Source: Fluviicola sp.
GTDB lineage: Bacteria; Bacteroidota; Bacteroidia; Flavobacteriales_D; Crocinitomicaceae
DNA length: 54,108 bases
NCBI GenBank assembly: GCA_002734065.2
Contig: NVXU02000053.1
Location: 1 to 54,108, forward strand
Direction: 5' to 3'
Part shown: piece by piece, positions 46,236 to 54,108 of the stretch
Layout: each line of letters starts with the position of its first letter
Position numbering within the stretch: position 1 is the stretch's first letter
The notes under the pieces: generated by a model
What the model saw: the letters and a program-made list of their open reading frames with translations, nothing else
The model's database searches: none
What the model was told of the DNA's origin: nothing
Program-made: the position numbers and the translations under genes

Positions 46236-46553
46236 CTACAATCCGATAACATGTTTCACTTCTACTTCCGTGATTTTTCGTGGTTCTCCATTCTTTGCAA
46301 GATACGTGCGATTGACTAAGCGTCCATGTATTGCTAACTGTTTGCCCTTCTCGCCGTAACTCTCAATAAACTTCGCCAAGTTGCCCCAAGCGAAAACTCG
46401 GTGCCATTCTGCGTCGTCTTTTTTGTTTTTACCTGCATATTTATTCGTAGCAATGGTAAATCGAGCCACTTTCCCCCCGTTTTCGAAGTTTGTGATTTGA
46501 GCATCTGCGCCCATGTTTCCTATTAATGTAATGTGATTTCTAACTGCTTGCAT
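46236..46553 (-). CDS. short single-stranded DNA-binding protein (ssb paralogue 1)
   Basis: 105 residues, one OB-fold: NHITLIGNMGAD (about 6-17), ARFTIATNKY, EWHRVFAWGNLAKF (about 50-63) and a beta strand end VEVKHVIGL. All landmarks of bacterial SSB OB-folds, but no Gln/Gly linker and no acidic DDDIPF-type C-terminal tip, so interactions with other replication proteins through that tip are not expected. Last gene of a three-gene ssb cluster, 11 bases after paralogue 2, ended by a strong hairpin. Confidence 0.85.
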   Translation of the reverse strand: MQAVRNHITLIGNMGADAQITNFENGGKVARFTIATNKYAGKNKKDDAEWHRVFAWGNLAKFIESYGEKGKQLAIHGRLVNRTYLAKNGEPRKITEVEVKHVIGL

Positions 46554-46564
46554 ATCGTTTAATT

Positions 46565-46876
46565 TTAAAGAATTATTAAGTCATTTACTTCTACTTCTGA
46601 AACAAATTGTTTGCTCCCATCTCGCTGATAAAACCGAGAAATTAATTTCCCTTCTACGGCAACTTCAAGGCCTTCTTCACCGAGTTCTTCCAACACTTGC
46701 ACCCATCTGCCCCATGCCGCCATTCTGTGCCAGTGGCTTTTCTTTTTTGTTTCCCCTTTTTCATCAAGGAACGTTTCTTTTGTTGCCATTGTGAATTGAG
46801 CAATTTTTCGACCATTCGGTAATTCATAAAAGCGAGGTTGTGCGGTTATTTTTCCAATTAAGTTTACGTGATTCAT
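46565..46876 (-). CDS. short single-stranded DNA-binding protein (ssb paralogue 2)
   Basis: 103 residues from the Met at 46876 (MNHVNLIGKITAQPRF); the frame to 46927 is non-homologous. OB-fold landmarks: LIGKI, KIAQFTMATKETF, SHWHRMAAWGRWVQVLEELGEEG (about 48-70), VAVEGKLISRFYQ and end VNDLIIL. Like the other two it stops at the end of the OB-fold without the acidic tail. It is diverged from the neighbours at a level suggesting old duplication. 11 bases before paralogue 1 and 58 bases after paralogue 3 on the same strand. Confidence 0.85.
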   Translation of the reverse strand: MNHVNLIGKITAQPRFYELPNGRKIAQFTMATKETFLDEKGETKKKSHWHRMAAWGRWVQVLEELGEEGLEVAVEGKLISRFYQRDGSKQFVSEVEVNDLIIL

Positions 46877-46934
46877 GTGTTTTCTTTTTAAGTGAATAAA
46901 AAAGGGAGACAAATCAATGCCTCCCAATTTGTGG

Positions 46935-47285
46935 TTAGGCTGTCTTTTCAGCTTTTGGTGATAGGATTAAAAAATCTTTCATTACAATTTCGGTTGAGAA
47001 TCTTTTCTCGCCTTCTTTTGTTTGGTAAGAATTGTTGACCAACTTCCCGTCGATGGCAACTTCAACACCTGTGTCTAACACTTTCGCAACAAGCTCTGCG
47101 TTTTTACCCCACACTTGGACTTTATGCCATTGTGTATTCTCTACCCACTCGCCTTCTTTGTTTTTGTAACTTTCGTTCGTTGCGATACTTAATTTCGCAA
47201 GCGATCTTCCTTTTTCAAATTTCACAACTTCTGGCTTCGCTCCTAAGCGACCAATCAAACTAACTTTGTTTCTTAATGCGTTCAT
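46935..47285 (-). CDS. short single-stranded DNA-binding protein (ssb paralogue 3)
   Basis: 116 residues, MNALRNKVSLIGRLG start, LAKLSIATNESY, NTQWHKVQVWGKNAELV (about 50-66), VAIDGKLVNNSYQ and end FLILSPKAEKTA: an SSB OB-fold with a short basic tail instead of the usual acidic tip. First gene of the cluster. The upstream region (47286-47709) has no gene and an unusual G-run composition. The cluster may be accessory SSBs tied to a mobile element or natural transformation (inference); the housekeeping ssb is not in the window. Confidence 0.85.
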   Translation of the reverse strand: MNALRNKVSLIGRLGAKPEVVKFEKGRSLAKLSIATNESYKNKEGEWVENTQWHKVQVWGKNAELVAKVLDTGVEVAIDGKLVNNSYQTKEGEKRFSTEIVMKDFLILSPKAEKTA

Positions 47286-47709: not shown

Positions 47710-48651
47710 ATGAAGTATCGCTTTTTAACATGTCTGCATAACATGAAGCTAGAAAAATCAGTTGACAAAATTGATTTAAAATCGAGCGGAATCATTAGCA
47801 CTGAAACAAGTGTTCTAGATGAATCGTTTAAAAATGAAATGGCTTATATCACCATAGGCGCACATGATATTGATGAGTTTTACAATAGACCATTCTATTA
47901 CTTAGATTGGAATTCAAATGAAAAAACTAAAGATTTCAACGGATATCGATGTACATATGCAATACTAAGGTCTATTCAAGACTTCATCTTTGATCTTTGG
48001 CAAATTAAAGACAATAATATTTATGTTTTCTCTGGATTCTTATTCGAATACGATAAGGTGATTTCCGATGGCTCAACTTTTAAAGGCACCGTCACGGCAA
48101 CAATGTCAAAGTCCAAATTAGAGAAATCAGGAACTCTATTCACTGAAGTAGAACTTAAGCCTGCAATTGAAGAGATGTCGCCTATCGTTATAAACGAACT
48201 TTTAGAGCAAGATTCTGATTACTTTACCCCCACTAGTGATCATTTCTTCAAGTCAAGTGGTATAGATAGAATTGGTCGAGCATCATATTTTGTCCTAGAA
48301 GCACGTAGCCGTCATACATTCCCAACTAAAATTGTTTCATACATTACTGCAATTGAGTGTTTGTTTACGACAAGTCAAACTGAATTGAGCCATAGAGCAT
48401 CTGAGCGAGTAGCTACTCTTAAAGGAGGCACAAAGGAGAGTAAATTAGAAACTTATAGGTTACTGAAAAAGGCATATGATGTGCGATCTAAAGTCGTCCA
48501 TGGGGCAATATTAAAGGGGCAAAATGAGGAATTGAAAGAAATATCAACTGGTCTTGACCAACTACTACGTGAGTTTTTATCAGAGAAAAACGAAATATTC
48601 ACAAAATCAAATGAGCAAATAGATAGTTACTTTTTGAATCAACTTTTTTAA
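47710..48651 (+). CDS. Apea-type HEPN domain protein
   Basis: 313 residues, no signal or membrane segment. The N-terminal ~200 residues are beta-rich and unassigned. The C-terminal part (about 205-295) reads as an Apea-like HEPN helical bundle: YITAIECLF, a cluster with SHRASERVATL, and YDVRSKVVHG with Arg259 and His264, the R-x4-H motif that forms the active site of HEPN RNases. HEPN proteins are often toxins or abortive-infection effectors. The RES gene starts 5 bases after its stop, so the two are co-expressed. Catalytic residues present; RNase activity inferred. Confidence 0.75.
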   Translation: MKYRFLTCLHNMKLEKSVDKIDLKSSGIISTETSVLDESFKNEMAYITIGAHDIDEFYNRPFYYLDWNSNEKTKDFNGYRCTYAILRSIQDFIFDLWQIKDNNIYVFSGFLFEYDKVISDGSTFKGTVTATMSKSKLEKSGTLFTEVELKPAIEEMSPIVINELLEQDSDYFTPTSDHFFKSSGIDRIGRASYFVLEARSRHTFPTKIVSYITAIECLFTTSQTELSHRASERVATLKGGTKESKLETYRLLKKAYDVRSKVVHGAILKGQNEELKEISTGLDQLLREFLSEKNEIFTKSNEQIDSYFLNQLF

Positions 48652-48656
48652 AATTG

Positions 48657-49706
48657 ATGACCACAAAACAGAATTTCATACTTTGTTCTAATTGCTTTCA
48701 TGATGAAGGACTTTCTCTCGCTGCCTTTAAAATTGGGACTGAGTCCGACTCGATTTGTCCAAGTTGCTTATCAACAAATGGGAAAAAGTTAAACGAGGCT
48801 TTAACTGAGTCTCTTTCACACGGATTCTTTGTAAGAGGCTCTCTCCATAAATCTGATTATGGAGCTATTCCAATAATTCAAGCTAATAAGTTGACAAAAA
48901 CAGAAGTGGAATTCAATGAACTTCTACTTCACGACACGAAACTTTTGGAGAAATCCATTGGTGTTGGCTTCTTTTATTACGGACCTAGAATGTGGATGGT
49001 AGGAGAAATAGAACCACTGAAAGACCTACAAACGAATGAAAATAGATTACAAACTATCGAGAAAATAATTGAGGCATATACTTCAAAATTGATGACCATC
49101 AATGACAAATTTTATAGATTAAGAAAGAACCCGAGTAAACCTAATGAACTTAGTCAATATGATAGTCCTCCGAGATCAGGAAATGGACGATTGGATTCTG
49201 AAAAAGAGAGTGTTCTTTATGGTTCTCAAGATCTTGAAATTTGCATCCATGAGTGTCGGTCAACTGTAGAAGATAATTTGTTTATTGCTACTTTAAAACC
49301 TACTCGTGAACTTAAACTACTTGATCTTTCTGTATTGATTGAAGAAGAAAATACTGAGTTTGAAAGTTTAGACTTGACAGTTCAAATGTTATTCTTTGCG
49401 GGAAATCATTCTTATGAAATTTCTCGTGAAATTGCAATTCAAATTAAACAGAAAGGCTTTGATGGCTTGATATATCCTTCATATTATAGCACTATAAGAA
49501 CTGGTGCTATGCCTTTTGATACTGAGATGGGAATTTCAATTCGTAAACTGCCATTATACTCGGACTATGCAAATACCCAGGTCATACCCAATATTGCACT
49601 CTTTGGAACCCCTATTAAAGACGGTAAAGTCGTGGTTAAATGTATAAACAAAGTTATTTTAAATCAAGTTAAATATGATATTCAATTTGGACCTGCTGAA
49701 TATTAA
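48657..49706 (+). CDS. RES-domain protein with N-terminal zinc-binding region
   Basis: 349 residues from ATG 48657; a TTG at 48654 is in frame but not needed. Residues 10-37 carry CSNC (Cys10, Cys13) and CPSC (Cys34, Cys37), a likely zinc ribbon, similar to HEPN/RES N-terminal domains. The RES domain (about 150-300) has FYRLR (Arg154), GRLDSEKESVLYGSQDLE with Tyr188, HECR with Glu199, and GLIYPSYYS with Ser275: the conserved Arg, Tyr, Glu, Ser set of NAD-degrading RES toxins. Second gene of the HEPN-RES pair; a group II intron lies 11 bases downstream on the opposite strand. NAD-consuming activity is inferred. Confidence 0.78.
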   Translation: MTTKQNFILCSNCFHDEGLSLAAFKIGTESDSICPSCLSTNGKKLNEALTESLSHGFFVRGSLHKSDYGAIPIIQANKLTKTEVEFNELLLHDTKLLEKSIGVGFFYYGPRMWMVGEIEPLKDLQTNENRLQTIEKIIEAYTSKLMTINDKFYRLRKNPSKPNELSQYDSPPRSGNGRLDSEKESVLYGSQDLEICIHECRSTVEDNLFIATLKPTRELKLLDLSVLIEEENTEFESLDLTVQMLFFAGNHSYEISREIAIQIKQKGFDGLIYPSYYSTIRTGAMPFDTEMGISIRKLPLYSDYANTQVIPNIALFGTPIKDGKVVVKCINKVILNQVKYDIQFGPAEY

Positions 49707-49717
49707 ATGATACTCAT

Positions 49718-50316
49718 AATCGAGTAGACGGCTCCGCTCCTAATTGAGCGGAGTGCGCCTCTCACACCACCAAGCGTACGGGTCTCGTACTTGGCGGTTC
49801 GCTAACCATCTCAACAGTCGCTCTTTACACCAACTGAAGCTATTTCCTACTTTATAAATGAGCTAAGTTGAAACTTTCTCATTTTAATTTCAGAAAAATT
49901 AACGTTCAGTCCTTCCTTAGTTGTGAGACCTTCTACCTCTAACGGCAGCTCGTTTCCCCTAAGTACTATGACCTCTGCTGACTTCTTTACTTAACCAACT
50001 CGTGGTTGTAAAGACCTCCCTCGGTAAGATAAACACCCTCTAGTTGATGTCTGCTGAATCTACTATTTCGGTTATCCTTGAATTAATCAAGGTTTTGGAC
50101 TTCGTAAAGATGTACTTACTCATCCAACCTTATAGCCTCAATATTCAGTTTCTGTTCGTCAGAACCAACTACGCAGTCTGGCTTACTTCAGTTCTATCTT
50201 CACAGATAACAACCTTGCCACTTGCTTCACTTAGAGTCGTTAGTCTCTCGTGTTCGGGACTTTAACCCTTGGGGATTCTATTTATAAGAACTATATTTAC
50301 CATTCAAGGCACACAC
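49718..50316 (-). mobile_element. ORF-less group II intron (about 599 nt)
   Basis: Minus strand. 5' end GTGTGTGCC (50316 or, with GTGTGCC, 50314), 3' end ...CTACTCGATT (49718). Domain V is at 49766-49798: stem ACCGCCAAG/CTTGGTGGT with an inner TACG/CGTA helix and a 2-base bulge on the 3' side. Domain VI is at 49718-49753: 8-bp stem gagcggag/ctccgctc with the bulged-A type end CTACTCGAT. The upstream ribozyme region has GTCAGCAGAGGTCATAGT and GGAAGGACTGAACGTT as in RT-containing bacterial introns I recall, but there is no reverse transcriptase. The frames inside it (e.g. 50044-50265 plus) are spurious. Splicing competence untested. Confidence 0.85.
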
Positions 50317-50319
50317 AAT

Positions 50320-50426
50320 GTATATAGTTAATGGCTGCATTGTGCTAATATTAAGCATTTTACATCAAATAAAATTTTTGCTAAACTGAAAGTTTTGTGC
50401 TTTGAAATCAGCCACTAACCATATAC
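50320..50426. repeat. attC-like imperfect inverted repeat beside the intron
   Basis: Arms 50320-50337 and 50409-50426 pair at 16 of 18 positions (GTATAT, GTTA, TGGCTG in common) across 71 bases. The arm begins 4 bases from the intron end. This resembles the stem of an integron attC-type recombination site, but no exact core consensus could be confirmed. Beyond it, 50427-50563 is an A/C-rich spacer in which I see no gene. Confidence 0.45.
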
Positions 50427-50563
50427 TAACCGTTACCCACCTTTGCAAAAAAATCCAACCACACATTTTACTCATTTATTTTTTGTCATCACACAAACCC
50501 AACCATAAAAAAATAAAAGAGTAAAATTCTAAAAAAAAATCATGCTAATAAAATAATTAGTTC

Positions 50564-50602
50564 TATATTTGGACATTATTAGTCTAAAACAAAGTTGTCC
50601 AA
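50564..50602 (+). promoter_or_regulatory. promoter and operator of the 50602 XRE gene
   Basis: -7 box TATATTTG at 50564-50571 (no clear -33). Inverted repeat TTGGACA (50569-50575) / TGTCCAA (50596-50602), 20-base spacer, overlapping the box and the start codon, with an internal half-site AGTC. Candidate autoregulation. Confidence 0.5.
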
Positions 50603-51144
50603 TGAAATCATTAGGAAATATTTTAAAAGTTGCACGAGAAGAAAAGGAAATGATACTGAGAAAAGTATCCGCAGAAGTTGATATTGACCAATCTTTGATA
50701 AGTAAATTCGAGAAAAACGAAAGAAAACCTACCAAAGAACAACTAATTAGACTTGCAAAGTTCTACAATCTTTCAGAGCAACAACTAATTATTAATTGGT
50801 ATTCTGAAAAAATAGCAGAAGATTTAAAATACACACAAGGAACAACTGAAATTTTAAGAGTTGCAGAAGAAAAAATTAATTATTACAAGTCTCAAGAAAA
50901 TAAGAAATTGAATTCATCTGAAATATTAAGTAAATTAAAAATTAAACCTGTAGTTGGTTTACAATTAACTAAAAGAAAAGGATTACTAAATTCTACTTGG
51001 ATAATTTATTTAAAAAATGGCTTTTATTATTTCTTTGATATTTCAGAAAAAATAACCTTTGATAAAAAACATAGATACTCAAAAGAACAATTTATAAAAG
51101 ATTACGAAAATTCATATTTTGAAATTGATTGTGAATGCTTTTAA
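50602..51144 (+). CDS. XRE-family helix-turn-helix regulator, R-M associated type
   Basis: 180 residues from ATG 50602 (the frame to 50569 is outside the homologous part). N-terminal HTH (about 1-60): LGNILKVAREEKEMILRKVS, then DQSLISKFEKNERKPTKEQL and LAKFYNLSE. The rest (about 90-180) is an uncharacterised alpha/beta region with NSTWIIYLKNGFYYFFDI. Such longer XRE proteins occur next to DNA methyltransferases and restriction enzymes in Bacteroidota. It would regulate a restriction-modification operon, but the methyltransferase is absent. Its 3' end abuts the convergent endonuclease-like gene without a gap. Confidence 0.8.
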   Translation: MKSLGNILKVAREEKEMILRKVSAEVDIDQSLISKFEKNERKPTKEQLIRLAKFYNLSEQQLIINWYSEKIAEDLKYTQGTTEILRVAEEKINYYKSQENKKLNSSEILSKLKIKPVVGLQLTKRKGLLNSTWIIYLKNGFYYFFDISEKITFDKKHRYSKEQFIKDYENSYFEIDCECF

Positions 51145-51615
51145 TTACAAATTGATTTGATATTGAATACGCTTATTCCTTATGATTTTTTCAAGTTCAT
51201 CAATTGAAAGCAGAACAAAGGAAGGTGCTTTTTCATTTAAAGTTACAAAGCAGAATAAAAATTTATCTTTAAGTATTTTCCCAAAATTAAATTCATTTTC
51301 TGTTGCACCAAAGAAGAAACCTTTTGGGTTATCTGGCAAATACTTTTTTGTGGTTTTTAGTTCCACAAAAATTATATCTTCTAAATATGTTTTTAAAAAA
51401 TCAGAATCAATCGTTTTTCCGACCATTTCAGGAACATAAATTAAATCAAACGATTGTAAATACCTTCTTCCTATTTTTAATAAATCGAGTAATTCTTTTT
51501 TCGTATCTAAATCAATTTTAAAAAATCCTGTATGATTATTCAAAAGAAAAAGAACTCCTTCTTTTTCTGTAATATTATTTGATAACGTCAATGTAAATGA
51601 ATGCTTTCTTGACAT
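51145..51615 (-). CDS. small PD-(D/E)XK-like nuclease candidate, 156 aa
   Basis: 156 residues, no signal. Visible core: DSDFLK, then EDIIFVELKTTKKYL (about 84-98), an E-x-K arrangement typical of PD-(D/E)XK nucleases (compare Mrr- and DUF3883-like proteins), followed by NPKGFFFGATENEF and a C-terminal LSIDELEKIIRNKR. I cannot name a specific enzyme family. Translationally coupled to the upstream XRE gene (TAATG, 1-base overlap at 51615), as in controller-endonuclease pairs, but with no methyltransferase. Function inferred only from residues and context. Confidence 0.6.
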   Translation of the reverse strand: MSRKHSFTLTLSNNITEKEGVLFLLNNHTGFFKIDLDTKKELLDLLKIGRRYLQSFDLIYVPEMVGKTIDSDFLKTYLEDIIFVELKTTKKYLPDNPKGFFFGATENEFNFGKILKDKFLFCFVTLNEKAPSFVLLSIDELEKIIRNKRIQYQINL

Positions 51616-51875
51616 TAGTTTTGAGTTTTAGTTTCGTACTTTTTAAATGAATTTAGTACTTTAAAATCAAGTAATTCTGAAAGGTTTAATTCAAATACTT
51701 TAGCAAAAACCGCCATGTTTGTAAGCGAAATATTTCGTTCGCCTCTTTCAATCATCCCAATATATGTTCGATGAAAACCAGTTGCAAAAGAAAGTTTTTC
51801 TTGACTCAATTGTTTTTCTTCACGTAGCTCTCTTACCCGTAATCCAAAGCCTTTAATCAAATGCTTATTTATCAT
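51615..51875 (-). CDS. small XRE-family (controller-protein-like) regulator
   Basis: 86 residues: one HTH_3 domain, IKGFGLRVRELREEKQLSQEKLSFATGF, then HRTYIGMIERGERNISLTNM and FAKVFELNLSELLDF. Size and gene context are those of a restriction-modification controller protein. First gene of the two-gene minus-strand unit; it overlaps the next gene by one base. Its promoter and an 11-bp perfect inverted repeat lie directly upstream (51880-51924), giving autoregulation and probably a leaderless mRNA. Confidence 0.82.
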   Translation of the reverse strand: MINKHLIKGFGLRVRELREEKQLSQEKLSFATGFHRTYIGMIERGERNISLTNMAVFAKVFELNLSELLDFKVLNSFKKYETKTQN

Positions 51876-51879
51876 ACCG

Positions 51880-51924
51880 CAAAACTATACAGATTGTATG
51901 TCAAGATCAACCGACAATCTGTAT
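51880..51924 (-). promoter_or_regulatory. promoter and perfect inverted-repeat operator of the XRE/nuclease unit
   Basis: Minus strand: TTG (51910-51908), 20-base spacer, TAGTTTTG (51887-51880). Inverted repeat ATACAGATTGT (51887-51897) and ACAATCTGTAT (51914-51924), perfect over 11 bp with a 16-base spacer, touching the -7 box and bracketing the -33 element. The transcript would begin at about the start codon (51875). Confidence 0.65.
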
Positions 51925-51964
51925 CATTAAACTTGTTGACGATTGGAAGTACCCAAATCAAGAT

Positions 51965-52915
51965 TTGTTAATCATAAAGCAAGATTGGGAAACTATTAAC
52001 CAAAAAATTAAGAACGGAAAAGCACACGAATTATCAGAAGGAGACACCTTTTATTTAGGAGCTTGCACCAAAGGCTCAACGGCAGAAAAATCATTAAGAG
52101 ACCAACCGTTTAATAAAGTTCAAGCAAAGCAAAGAGCATATTCTTTAAAACAAGGGTATGTAAACCACATAATTGCAAATATTGCCCAGGAAGAAAAAGG
52201 AGTTTATGGGAAAATTCTGACCCAAGAAACAATATTTGAACACTTGCCATCAATTGAAGAAATAGTAGCTTCTAAATTTGAGCCTTTTTACGGAAAAACA
52301 TCAATTGAAATCGAAGGGCATTTCAATCTGGAATTAAACAGAACTGCTAAGAGTTATTTTGCAAATCTAACCAAAGCAATTTTAGGAATTGGCCTAAACA
52401 AAAAAATTGAAGAATTTGAAAAAGCAGATATTCAGGTAAAAACCATCCGACTAAAAGAAAATAATTTGCCTAAAGAGGATATTTCCTTTCCAAATTTTAA
52501 ATATGAGGAAATTATTAACTTGGATTGGGAAGAAAGTGAATTTAAGCACATTTTAGAGCAAAAGTTCTTTTTTGTTTTTTACCAATTTGAAAACGACATC
52601 TTAACATTGAAAAAAGTGAAGTTTTGGAATATGCCCTATCCTGACATAGAGGAAGCCAAGCAAGTTTGGGACAAAACAGTAGAAACAATTGAAAAAGGAA
52701 AAATAATTAGCGAAATAACAGATAAAGGAATACGAAAAACGTATTTTCCTAAAAAAACAGAAAATAGAATTAGTCACGTAAGACCACACGCAAGAGACAA
52801 GGTCGATTGCTACGATTTACCTGTAAAAGACAAATTGACAAATGCAACAGAATATACCAAGCACTGTTTTTGGCTAAATGCAAGTTACGTGAAAAATGAA
52901 ATTTATATGAAATAG
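51965..52915 (+). pseudogene. N-terminally truncated Sau3AI/MutH-type restriction endonuclease
   Basis: 316 residues counted from TTG 51965. It contains the Sau3AI-family middle and C-terminal signatures KAHELSEGDTFYLGACTKG, RDQPFNKVQAKQRAYSLKQGYV, HVRPHARDK and HCFWLNASYV. Full Sau3AI-type enzymes are about 490 residues with the MutH-like catalytic domain in the first ~200; that part is missing here. The frame stays open upstream, and VDDWKYPNQDLLIIKQDW (from about 51938) still looks homologous, so the gene was cut near 51935 and now abuts the XRE promoter region. It is probably non-catalytic, keeping the DNA-binding half. No methyltransferase is near. Confidence 0.75.
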
Positions 52916-54050: not shown

Positions 54051-54108
54051 CCAAAACGCTTATTTTTCGCAAAATTCAATTGAATTTTGCGAAAAATAAG
54101 CGTTTTGG
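54051..54108. repeat. perfect 58-bp palindrome at the window end
   Basis: 29-base arms without spacer (centre caattg), every position checked. It ends exactly on the last base given, so the true inverted repeat may be longer. Could be a contig-end fold-back artefact or a real terminal or regulatory palindrome. Confidence 0.9.

Follow-up and report, generated by a model that had tools for sequence, protein, structure and literature searches.

A controller protein–nuclease cassette in place of the methyltransferase gene and endonuclease 5′ part of a Sau3AI-type restriction–modification operon in Fluviicola sp.

We analyzed a 54,108-nucleotide stretch of DNA from Fluviicola sp. (assembly GCA_002734065.2, contig NVXU02000053.1, positions 1 to 54,108 of the forward strand; hereafter, the window) and focused on a restriction–modification (R-M) locus at positions 50602–52915. 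The locus was a Sau3AI-type operon without its methyltransferase gene and approximately the first 136 codons of its endonuclease gene, and an inverted pair of genes for a controller (C) protein and a nuclease occupied the place of the lost parts. The explanation that we consider probable is that a mobile cassette of a C protein and a small PD-(D/E)XK nuclease, in many cases accompanied by a small third gene that can be exchanged, overwrote the middle of the operon. The source genome was a 3.49-Mb assembly of 62 contigs with a completeness of 99.98%.

Intact operons of this type were available from two loci in the same family as the window organism (L097 and L098; L labels denote loci and G labels genomes). 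They encoded, in order, an XRE regulator of 108 amino acids (aa), a C5 methyltransferase of 428 aa, and a Sau3AI of 461 aa, with the methyltransferase and Sau3AI genes overlapping by 17 bp. The window retained on the plus strand the 5′ gene for the regulator of the former operon (XREL; 50602–50907; 102 aa; Pfam HTH_3, 4e-10) and the 3′ part of the endonuclease gene (51923–52915), equivalent to approximately residues 136–461 of the intact protein. Between them, on the minus strand, lay the open reading frames (ORFs) of an 86-aa XRE protein (51615–51875), the first gene of the pair, and of a 156-aa nuclease (NUC; 51145–51615). A preliminary description, made from the sequence alone, had proposed a broken Sau3AI-type R-M locus with a nested, inverted pair of XRE and PD-(D/E)XK-like genes, and all of these parts were present. 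Its further proposal, that the methyltransferase gene and the Sau3AI 5′ part had been replaced, agreed with the intact operons, in which full-length relatives of the truncated endonuclease did not naturally lack the catalytic domain. The arrangement was not due to chance, given the E-values of its parts and its recurrence at 17 of 80 other loci.

The locus search, in which one genome per species was scanned with patterns built from four sequences, detected 97 places, of which 80 were retained. The cassette was nested, i.e., flanked by remnants of the same Sau3AI-type operon (tblastn, E ≤ 1e-4), at 17 of the 80 (16 among the first 37) in addition to the window, with the same sides and strands; the other 63 were without such an operon remnant. 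Pieces of Sau3AI were found at 16 of the 17 nested loci and pieces of the C5 methyltransferase at 13, none of them intact. The methyltransferase pieces showed no match past residue 336 of 428, and the Sau3AI pieces started at residue 33 or later; five loci (L026, L031, L035, L038, and L051) carried no more than short Sau3AI pieces. Three loci (L032, L044, and L070) were excluded from the nested count; small proteins near their nuclease copies resembled the C-terminal part of Sau3AI only, with a divergent match of 34–36% identity. Among 48 nuclease-encoding genomes, none held an intact methyltransferase of the Sau3AI-operon type and 13 held truncated copies (66–91% identity), the remaining methyltransferase matches being at most 45% identical. 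The nuclease was found in none of the five genomes with a full-length Sau3AI (G101, G115, G157, G168, and G228), nor in G276, which holds a Sau3AI fragment. Because intact Sau3AI operons were rare (5 of 240 genomes), so that approximately one co-occurrence in 48 was expected by chance, the absence of co-occurrence was weak, suggestive evidence of exclusion.

The truncated endonuclease belonged to the Sau3AI family by its match to NF040973 (positions 129–474 of 475; 378 bits, cut-off 300; positions 138–474 with E = 1e-111 in a second profile scan), and it matched Sau3AI in the Protein Data Bank (PDB; 4pxg) from chain residue 163 onward. It was the only Sau3AI-family match in the source genome. 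The N-terminal catalytic region, whose residues we take to be the D-ExK within EADFxxxGMELK of intact relatives, was absent from the window, where homology began at approximately residue 136 of 461. The frame was open from 51857, and its homologous part began at approximately 51923, abutting the end of the C-box at 51889–51922; its first start codon was a TTG at 51965. Homology had been expected to extend upstream of this TTG, as it did, with a start at 51938 that we revise to approximately 51923. Remnants at other loci began at many different codons; the first start was TTG in 8 of 11 listed remnants, and in seven of those eight the next ATG lay at least 88 codons further. We regard the remnant as doubtful as a working protein, in view of these variable break points and TTG starts. 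The earlier suggestion that the remnant and the nested pair form a new two-gene regulator–nuclease system held for the pair, which was recovered in other genomes with the C gene directly upstream of the nuclease gene at 46 of 80 loci. Membership of the remnant was unsupported because start codons varied between genomes and most of the retained loci were without such a remnant. The Sau3AI 3′ piece and XREL would then be left-overs of the replaced operon.

Next, we examined the regulator within the cassette. Profile matches identified the inner XRE protein as an R-M controller protein: it matched PADLOC Control_protein at 8e-21, and the first PDB matches of its profile were C.BclI (7e-18), C.AhdI (5e-17), and the R-M controller protein 3clc (5e-10), which we take to be C.Esp1396I. 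The stop codon of the C gene and the start codon of the nuclease gene shared one base (TAATG), and the two genes overlapped or nearly touched across loci. Directly upstream of the C gene, the C-box comprised two near-palindromic operators with centers 21 bp apart and four mismatches in 26 positions to the pattern, which was defined as two 13-bp palindromes with centers 21 or 22 bp apart (20–22 allowed). Of 47 upstream regions (the window and 46 loci), 41 contained the pattern with at most six mismatches, as against none of 940 shuffles; this count is descriptive, given that the pattern was derived from the same sequences in which it was counted. The pattern extended from Flavobacteria through Sulfurimonas to Acidobacteria. 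Published C-boxes consist of two quasi-palindromic operators in a site of approximately 35 bp (PMC3115060), a form with which the window C-box agrees.

An overlapping two-gene operon preceded by palindromic operators would also suit a type II toxin–antitoxin system, in which the nuclease would be a toxin kept silent through binding by the XRE protein as its antitoxin, and the scattered distribution of the pair, also beside housekeeping genes, points in the same direction. However, the first three solved relatives of the regulator are R-M controller proteins, the box with its two tandem operators belongs with those of C proteins (PMC3115060), and the nuclease had no match in plasmid and phage collections or viral contigs. 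We consider a toxin–antitoxin system quite improbable.

We then characterized the nuclease. An alignment of 75 sequences showed invariant N13, E17, D57, E85, K87, GFFFGAT, and Q151, and the D and ExK of the PD-(D/E)XK motif (D57, E85, and K87) were conserved in all 75. In a Foldseek search with the AlphaFold2 model (predicted local distance difference test score, 86), ranks 1–6 were SPARDA complexes (best E, 5e-3) and rank 7 was the unrelated human Rep15 (0.036), with Hjc resolvases (0.04–0.5), HincII (0.14), and SwaI (0.40) further down. By fold, the nuclease thus showed no more than a weak resemblance to PD-(D/E)XK enzymes. Neither Pfam nor NCBIfam gave a match of the window nuclease over the cut-off, and PADLOC gave none at E ≤ 1. 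NOV_C (PF13020) was matched at E ≤ 0.1 by 64 of the 75 members. The window nuclease scored 17.5 bits, below the Pfam cut-off of 22.1; the top of ten other members detailed reached 21.7 bits, and the best of the 75 (E = 5e-5) probably exceeded the cut-off. A distant relationship of the nuclease family with NOV_C is therefore likely.

Between the window and L009, the nonsynonymous (dN) and synonymous (dS) divergences of the nuclease were 0.027 and 0.602 (dN/dS, 0.045), indicating that it evolves under purifying selection. This conservation bears on the reading that the cassette arrived by random insertion and that the locus then decayed, with nothing functional left. The Sau3AI piece and the XREL fusion described below do look like debris, and the frequent TTG starts of the remnants would be expected of decay. 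Nevertheless, the nuclease and the C protein are strongly conserved and the C-box persists across phyla, and we regard random insertion and decay as very improbable.

The ORF ending at 51144 on the plus strand had been described as one long XRE regulator at 50602–51144. The ORF was real (180 aa from the ATG at 50602; in the ORF list it begins further upstream, with a TTG at 50569); it was not, however, a single regulator. Comparison with other loci indicated that the 180-aa protein is a chimera, in which XREL (residues 1–102) is fused in frame to a 78-aa protein (residues 103–180; 50908–51144), which we term the slot protein. The window XREL was 77–88% identical to those of L009, L014, L036, L037, and L039, 35–46% identical to those of most other overwritten operons, and 37% identical to the 108-aa XREL of the intact L097 operon. 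The slot protein belonged to cluster 4, one of at least two slot-protein families (including clusters 4 and 5), and was 73% identical to a separate 78-aa protein at L009. At 13 other loci, 12 of which were aligned, a cluster 4 protein was encoded by a separate ORF convergent with the nuclease gene. These separate proteins were mostly 78–89 aa, and two ORF calls of 112 and 120 aa began further upstream. The first codon of the slot protein in the window was a TTG at 50908, and therefore translation of its own is possible. The same slot held an unrelated 83- to 117-aa protein (cluster 5) at eight other loci and other small ORFs at L024 and L026. Between L036 and L039, the flanks on either side were 82–95% identical and the slot 51–69%. 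Unrelated slot proteins between similar flanks imply that the third gene is exchangeable.

To trace how the cassette might move, we compared the junctions. Identity between L018 and L020 was 93–99% over a stretch that began at nuclease position 100, took in the slot gene and the junction repeat, and reached the beginning of the methyltransferase piece; it was 92 and 89% towards the C gene and 71–84% outward on either side in the operon pieces. This mosaic looks like a transferred tract ending inside the operon remnants. Identities of the nuclease correlated with those of Sau3AI (Spearman, 0.64; 11 loci; 0 of 2000 permutations); for the nuclease and XREL, the value was 0.04 (12 loci; 618 of 2000 permutations). 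Repeats of approximately 90 bp resembling repetitive extragenic palindromic (REP) elements, in inverted orientation, were found on both sides of the cassette at L020, L030, L036, L037, and L039 and on one side at L018, L022, L024, L026, and L038, and were only partly matched at L009, L031, and L051. At least one such repeat thus lay between the cassette and the operon pieces at 10 of the 17 nested loci, and both did so at five. None was found in the window or at L014, L015, L017, and L035, and the repeats are therefore not required as a general means of movement.

Our best reading is that the cassette spreads by overwriting Sau3AI operons through recombination. It would enter intact operons by homologous recombination via the shared operon ends, and the exchange would remove the methyltransferase and the endonuclease together; loss of the methyltransferase alone should be lethal, Type II endonucleases being described as highly toxic once their methyltransferase is missing (PMC3488263). 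Sau3AI operons could be displaced because this joint removal would be tolerated. Once established, the C protein would bind its own promoter and first activate, then limit, the C–nuclease operon, so that the nuclease would appear late and at a low level. The nuclease itself would restrict DNA on its own, at a target that would be missing from the host genome.

Several observations weigh against this explanation. The nuclease had no strong fold match, its best Foldseek E-value being 5e-3 and none falling below 1e-3. At 34 of the 80 loci, mostly those with divergent copies, no C gene was detected (four of these were too near a contig end). The locus scan rested on patterns from only four sequences, and 17 of the 97 places were not retained. 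Pieces at L018 and L022, which have both junctions in common, showed dN/dS values of 0.08 (Sau3AI) and 0.12 (methyltransferase), which would be unexpected for a dead left-over; recombination with intact alleles could explain them, as could a function that the pieces retain. If the pieces are untranslated, as the TTG starts suggest for Sau3AI, such recombination would be needed to keep them fresh. Five remnants (L014, L024, L030, L037, and L039) lacked only 32–48 N-terminal residues and kept the region of the catalytic residues. Finally, N6_Mtase was matched over the cut-off in all eight nuclease genomes tested, so that an unlinked methyltransferase is conceivable; N6_N4 was matched over the cut-off in two of the eight. 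The N6_Mtase matches of G280 and G290 were weak only (best, 7.5e-8 and 3.5e-5), and such weak matches may be relatives outside DNA methylation.

We also surveyed methyltransferases around the cassette and in its host genomes. The ORF list of the window contained no linked cognate methyltransferase at the locus. Within 3 kb of the 63 non-nested loci, a search by C5 cluster and motifs detected a methyltransferase at 10–11 and none at 52–53. A C5 methyltransferase of cluster 2 was present at seven of these loci (L027, L055, L057, L059, L065, L066, and L067), and ORFs with what we take to be amino-methyltransferase motifs were present at L010, L033, and L041 and, doubtfully, at L042. A Pfam scan of 135 of 175 close neighbor ORFs recovered at least three C5, two D12, and three Vsr matches among the 25 of 143 families listed. 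At six C5 loci, with one or two neighbor genes each, an endonuclease of another family was found at three (L027, L055, and L057), and there was no endonuclease match at the others (L059, L066, and L067). We rejected the nuclease as the cognate enzyme of the neighboring C5 methyltransferase, as three of these six loci carry another recognizable endonuclease. Of 28 nuclease genomes, 21 had C5 matches and 11 had D12 matches, so that neither family was common to all, and the nuclease is therefore unlikely to depend on a single conserved methyltransferase. A general dependence of its cleavage on 5-methylcytosine (m5C) is unlikely as well, given that a C5 methyltransferase match is present in 21 of these 28 genomes.

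These data bear on the reading that the pair is the C and endonuclease (R) half of an ordinary Type II system, with its methyltransferase unlinked or lost. Small overlapping C and R genes are the architecture of PvuII-like systems. The source genome encodes elsewhere a D12 pair, one C5 enzyme, and two N6_Mtase matches, and a full-length D12 methyltransferase of the N6-methyladenine (m6A) type lies beside the cassette, upstream of and divergent from the pair, at L009, L033, and L041. Moreover, for 57 of 272 solitary endonucleases, a methyltransferase at a distant place was predicted (PMC3488263). Yet most non-nested loci had no methyltransferase detected within 3 kb, C5 and D12 matches were patchy among the nuclease genomes, and the D12 and C5 loci of the source genome adjoin endonuclease-like genes of their own, as judged by reading ORFs rather than by family match. 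We consider such a half-system unlikely. The nuclease as an isoschizomer using the resident methyltransferase was rejected, because the window lacks the gene of the latter and, among the 17 nested loci, 13 carry it in truncated form and at the other four it was not found. As a separate observation, the cassette at L009, L018, and L041 was enclosed by genes for a D12 methyltransferase and for a possible endonuclease of 203–229 aa (cluster 12), at the first two together with Sau3AI operon pieces; the cluster 12 copy at L041 had no PADLOC match.

The same truncations can be read differently if the nuclease is DpnI-like, cutting GATC that carries m5C from a Sau3AI-type methyltransferase, so that cassette and operon would be mutually exclusive alleles. 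To our knowledge, DpnI has no C protein, which counts against such a reading. It would accommodate the replacement at the same locus, the truncation or absence of the C5 methyltransferase at every nested locus, the lack of any intact copy in 48 nuclease genomes and of the nuclease in the intact Sau3AI genomes, and the full length of the m6A-type D12 methyltransferase beside the cassette at the three loci named above. A precedent exists in DpnI, DpnII, and DpnIII at one pneumococcal location (PMC6265443 and PMC3573125). On the other side, the rarity of intact Sau3AI operons makes the zero co-occurrence weak, no methyl-reading domain was found, and a Sulfurimonas nuclease of 88–93% identity had no Sau3AI operon piece detected nearby. 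We judge a DpnI-like allele to be an improbable explanation. By analogy, one could extend it, with rather low probability, to a modification-dependent endonuclease that is timed by the C protein and cleaves DNA at GATm5C, in mirror image to the overwritten Sau3AI/DpnIII operon; the alleles would be exchanged via the shared operon ends, with the slot gene (two or more unrelated families) as an exchangeable accessory.

Other features of the window surrounded the locus. Group II intron pieces lay just upstream at 49909–50209 on the minus strand (Rfam RF02001, 90 bits, over the gathering score; RF01998, 43 bits), and from 49707 to 50528 the ORF list has no minus-strand entry of 50 aa or more. Two successive proteins encoded at 47710–49706 on the plus strand may be another toxin or defense pair: the first, of 313 aa, matched nothing in Pfam or NCBIfam, and the second, of 350 aa, contained a RES domain (Pfam RES, 1e-10). 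Three consecutive small genes at 46236–47285 on the minus strand (105, 120, and 116 aa) read like single-stranded-DNA-binding proteins. The contig ended in a perfect 58-bp palindrome (54051–54108), at which the assembly may have halted.

An endonuclease that lacks a protecting methyltransferase would be expected to kill its host, and the existence of such enzymes calls for an explanation. The present nuclease family spans several phyla, and its closer half has a dedicated controller protein and operator. Repeated overwriting of the same operon shows how a loss-resistant restriction system can be displaced, with methyltransferase and endonuclease removed together, and its recurrence suggests an exchangeable defense module that does without a neighboring protective enzyme. 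The compact protein pair also yields a clear prediction, namely, GATm5C dependence. Solitary endonucleases are known; for a C-protein-controlled family without a methyltransferase, with an exchangeable third gene, and repeatedly overwriting one R-M operon, the searches made of openly licensed literature showed no precedent, either for such a controlled family or for a cassette within Sau3AI operons.

Among known systems, the solitary restriction endonucleases of Ershova et al. (2012; PMC3488263) likewise comprise endonuclease-like genes without a cognate methyltransferase, and the terms "C-protein," "control protein," and "controller" are absent from the main text of that source. The 21 Type II solitary endonucleases of that study without a nearby methyltransferase fragment group with endonucleases of annotated R-M systems; unlike for those 21, no methyltransferase could be shown as the present family's own. 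C-protein-controlled Type IIP systems (AhdI, BclI, Esp1396I, and PvuII) share with the cassette the C protein, the tandem-palindrome C-box, the leading position of the C gene, and the overlapping small endonuclease-like gene, whereas the window cassette is without a linked methyltransferase. The Sau3AI/DpnIII-type R-M operon (GATC, m5C) has the same flanks, XREL and the Sau3AI 3′ part, and differs in that the window contains another nuclease in place of the methyltransferase gene and the catalytic Sau3AI 5′ part. DpnI, DpnII, and DpnIII occupy one genomic location and all act at GATC (PMC6265443), and the DpnIII methyltransferase makes GATm5C (PMC6265443 and PMC3573125). In contrast to those loci, the present cassette is flanked by operon remnants of variable length, and a GATC target would follow by analogy; the replacement of Sau3AI operon parts by the cassette nevertheless resembles the way in which different GATC systems swap at one chromosomal place in pneumococcus.

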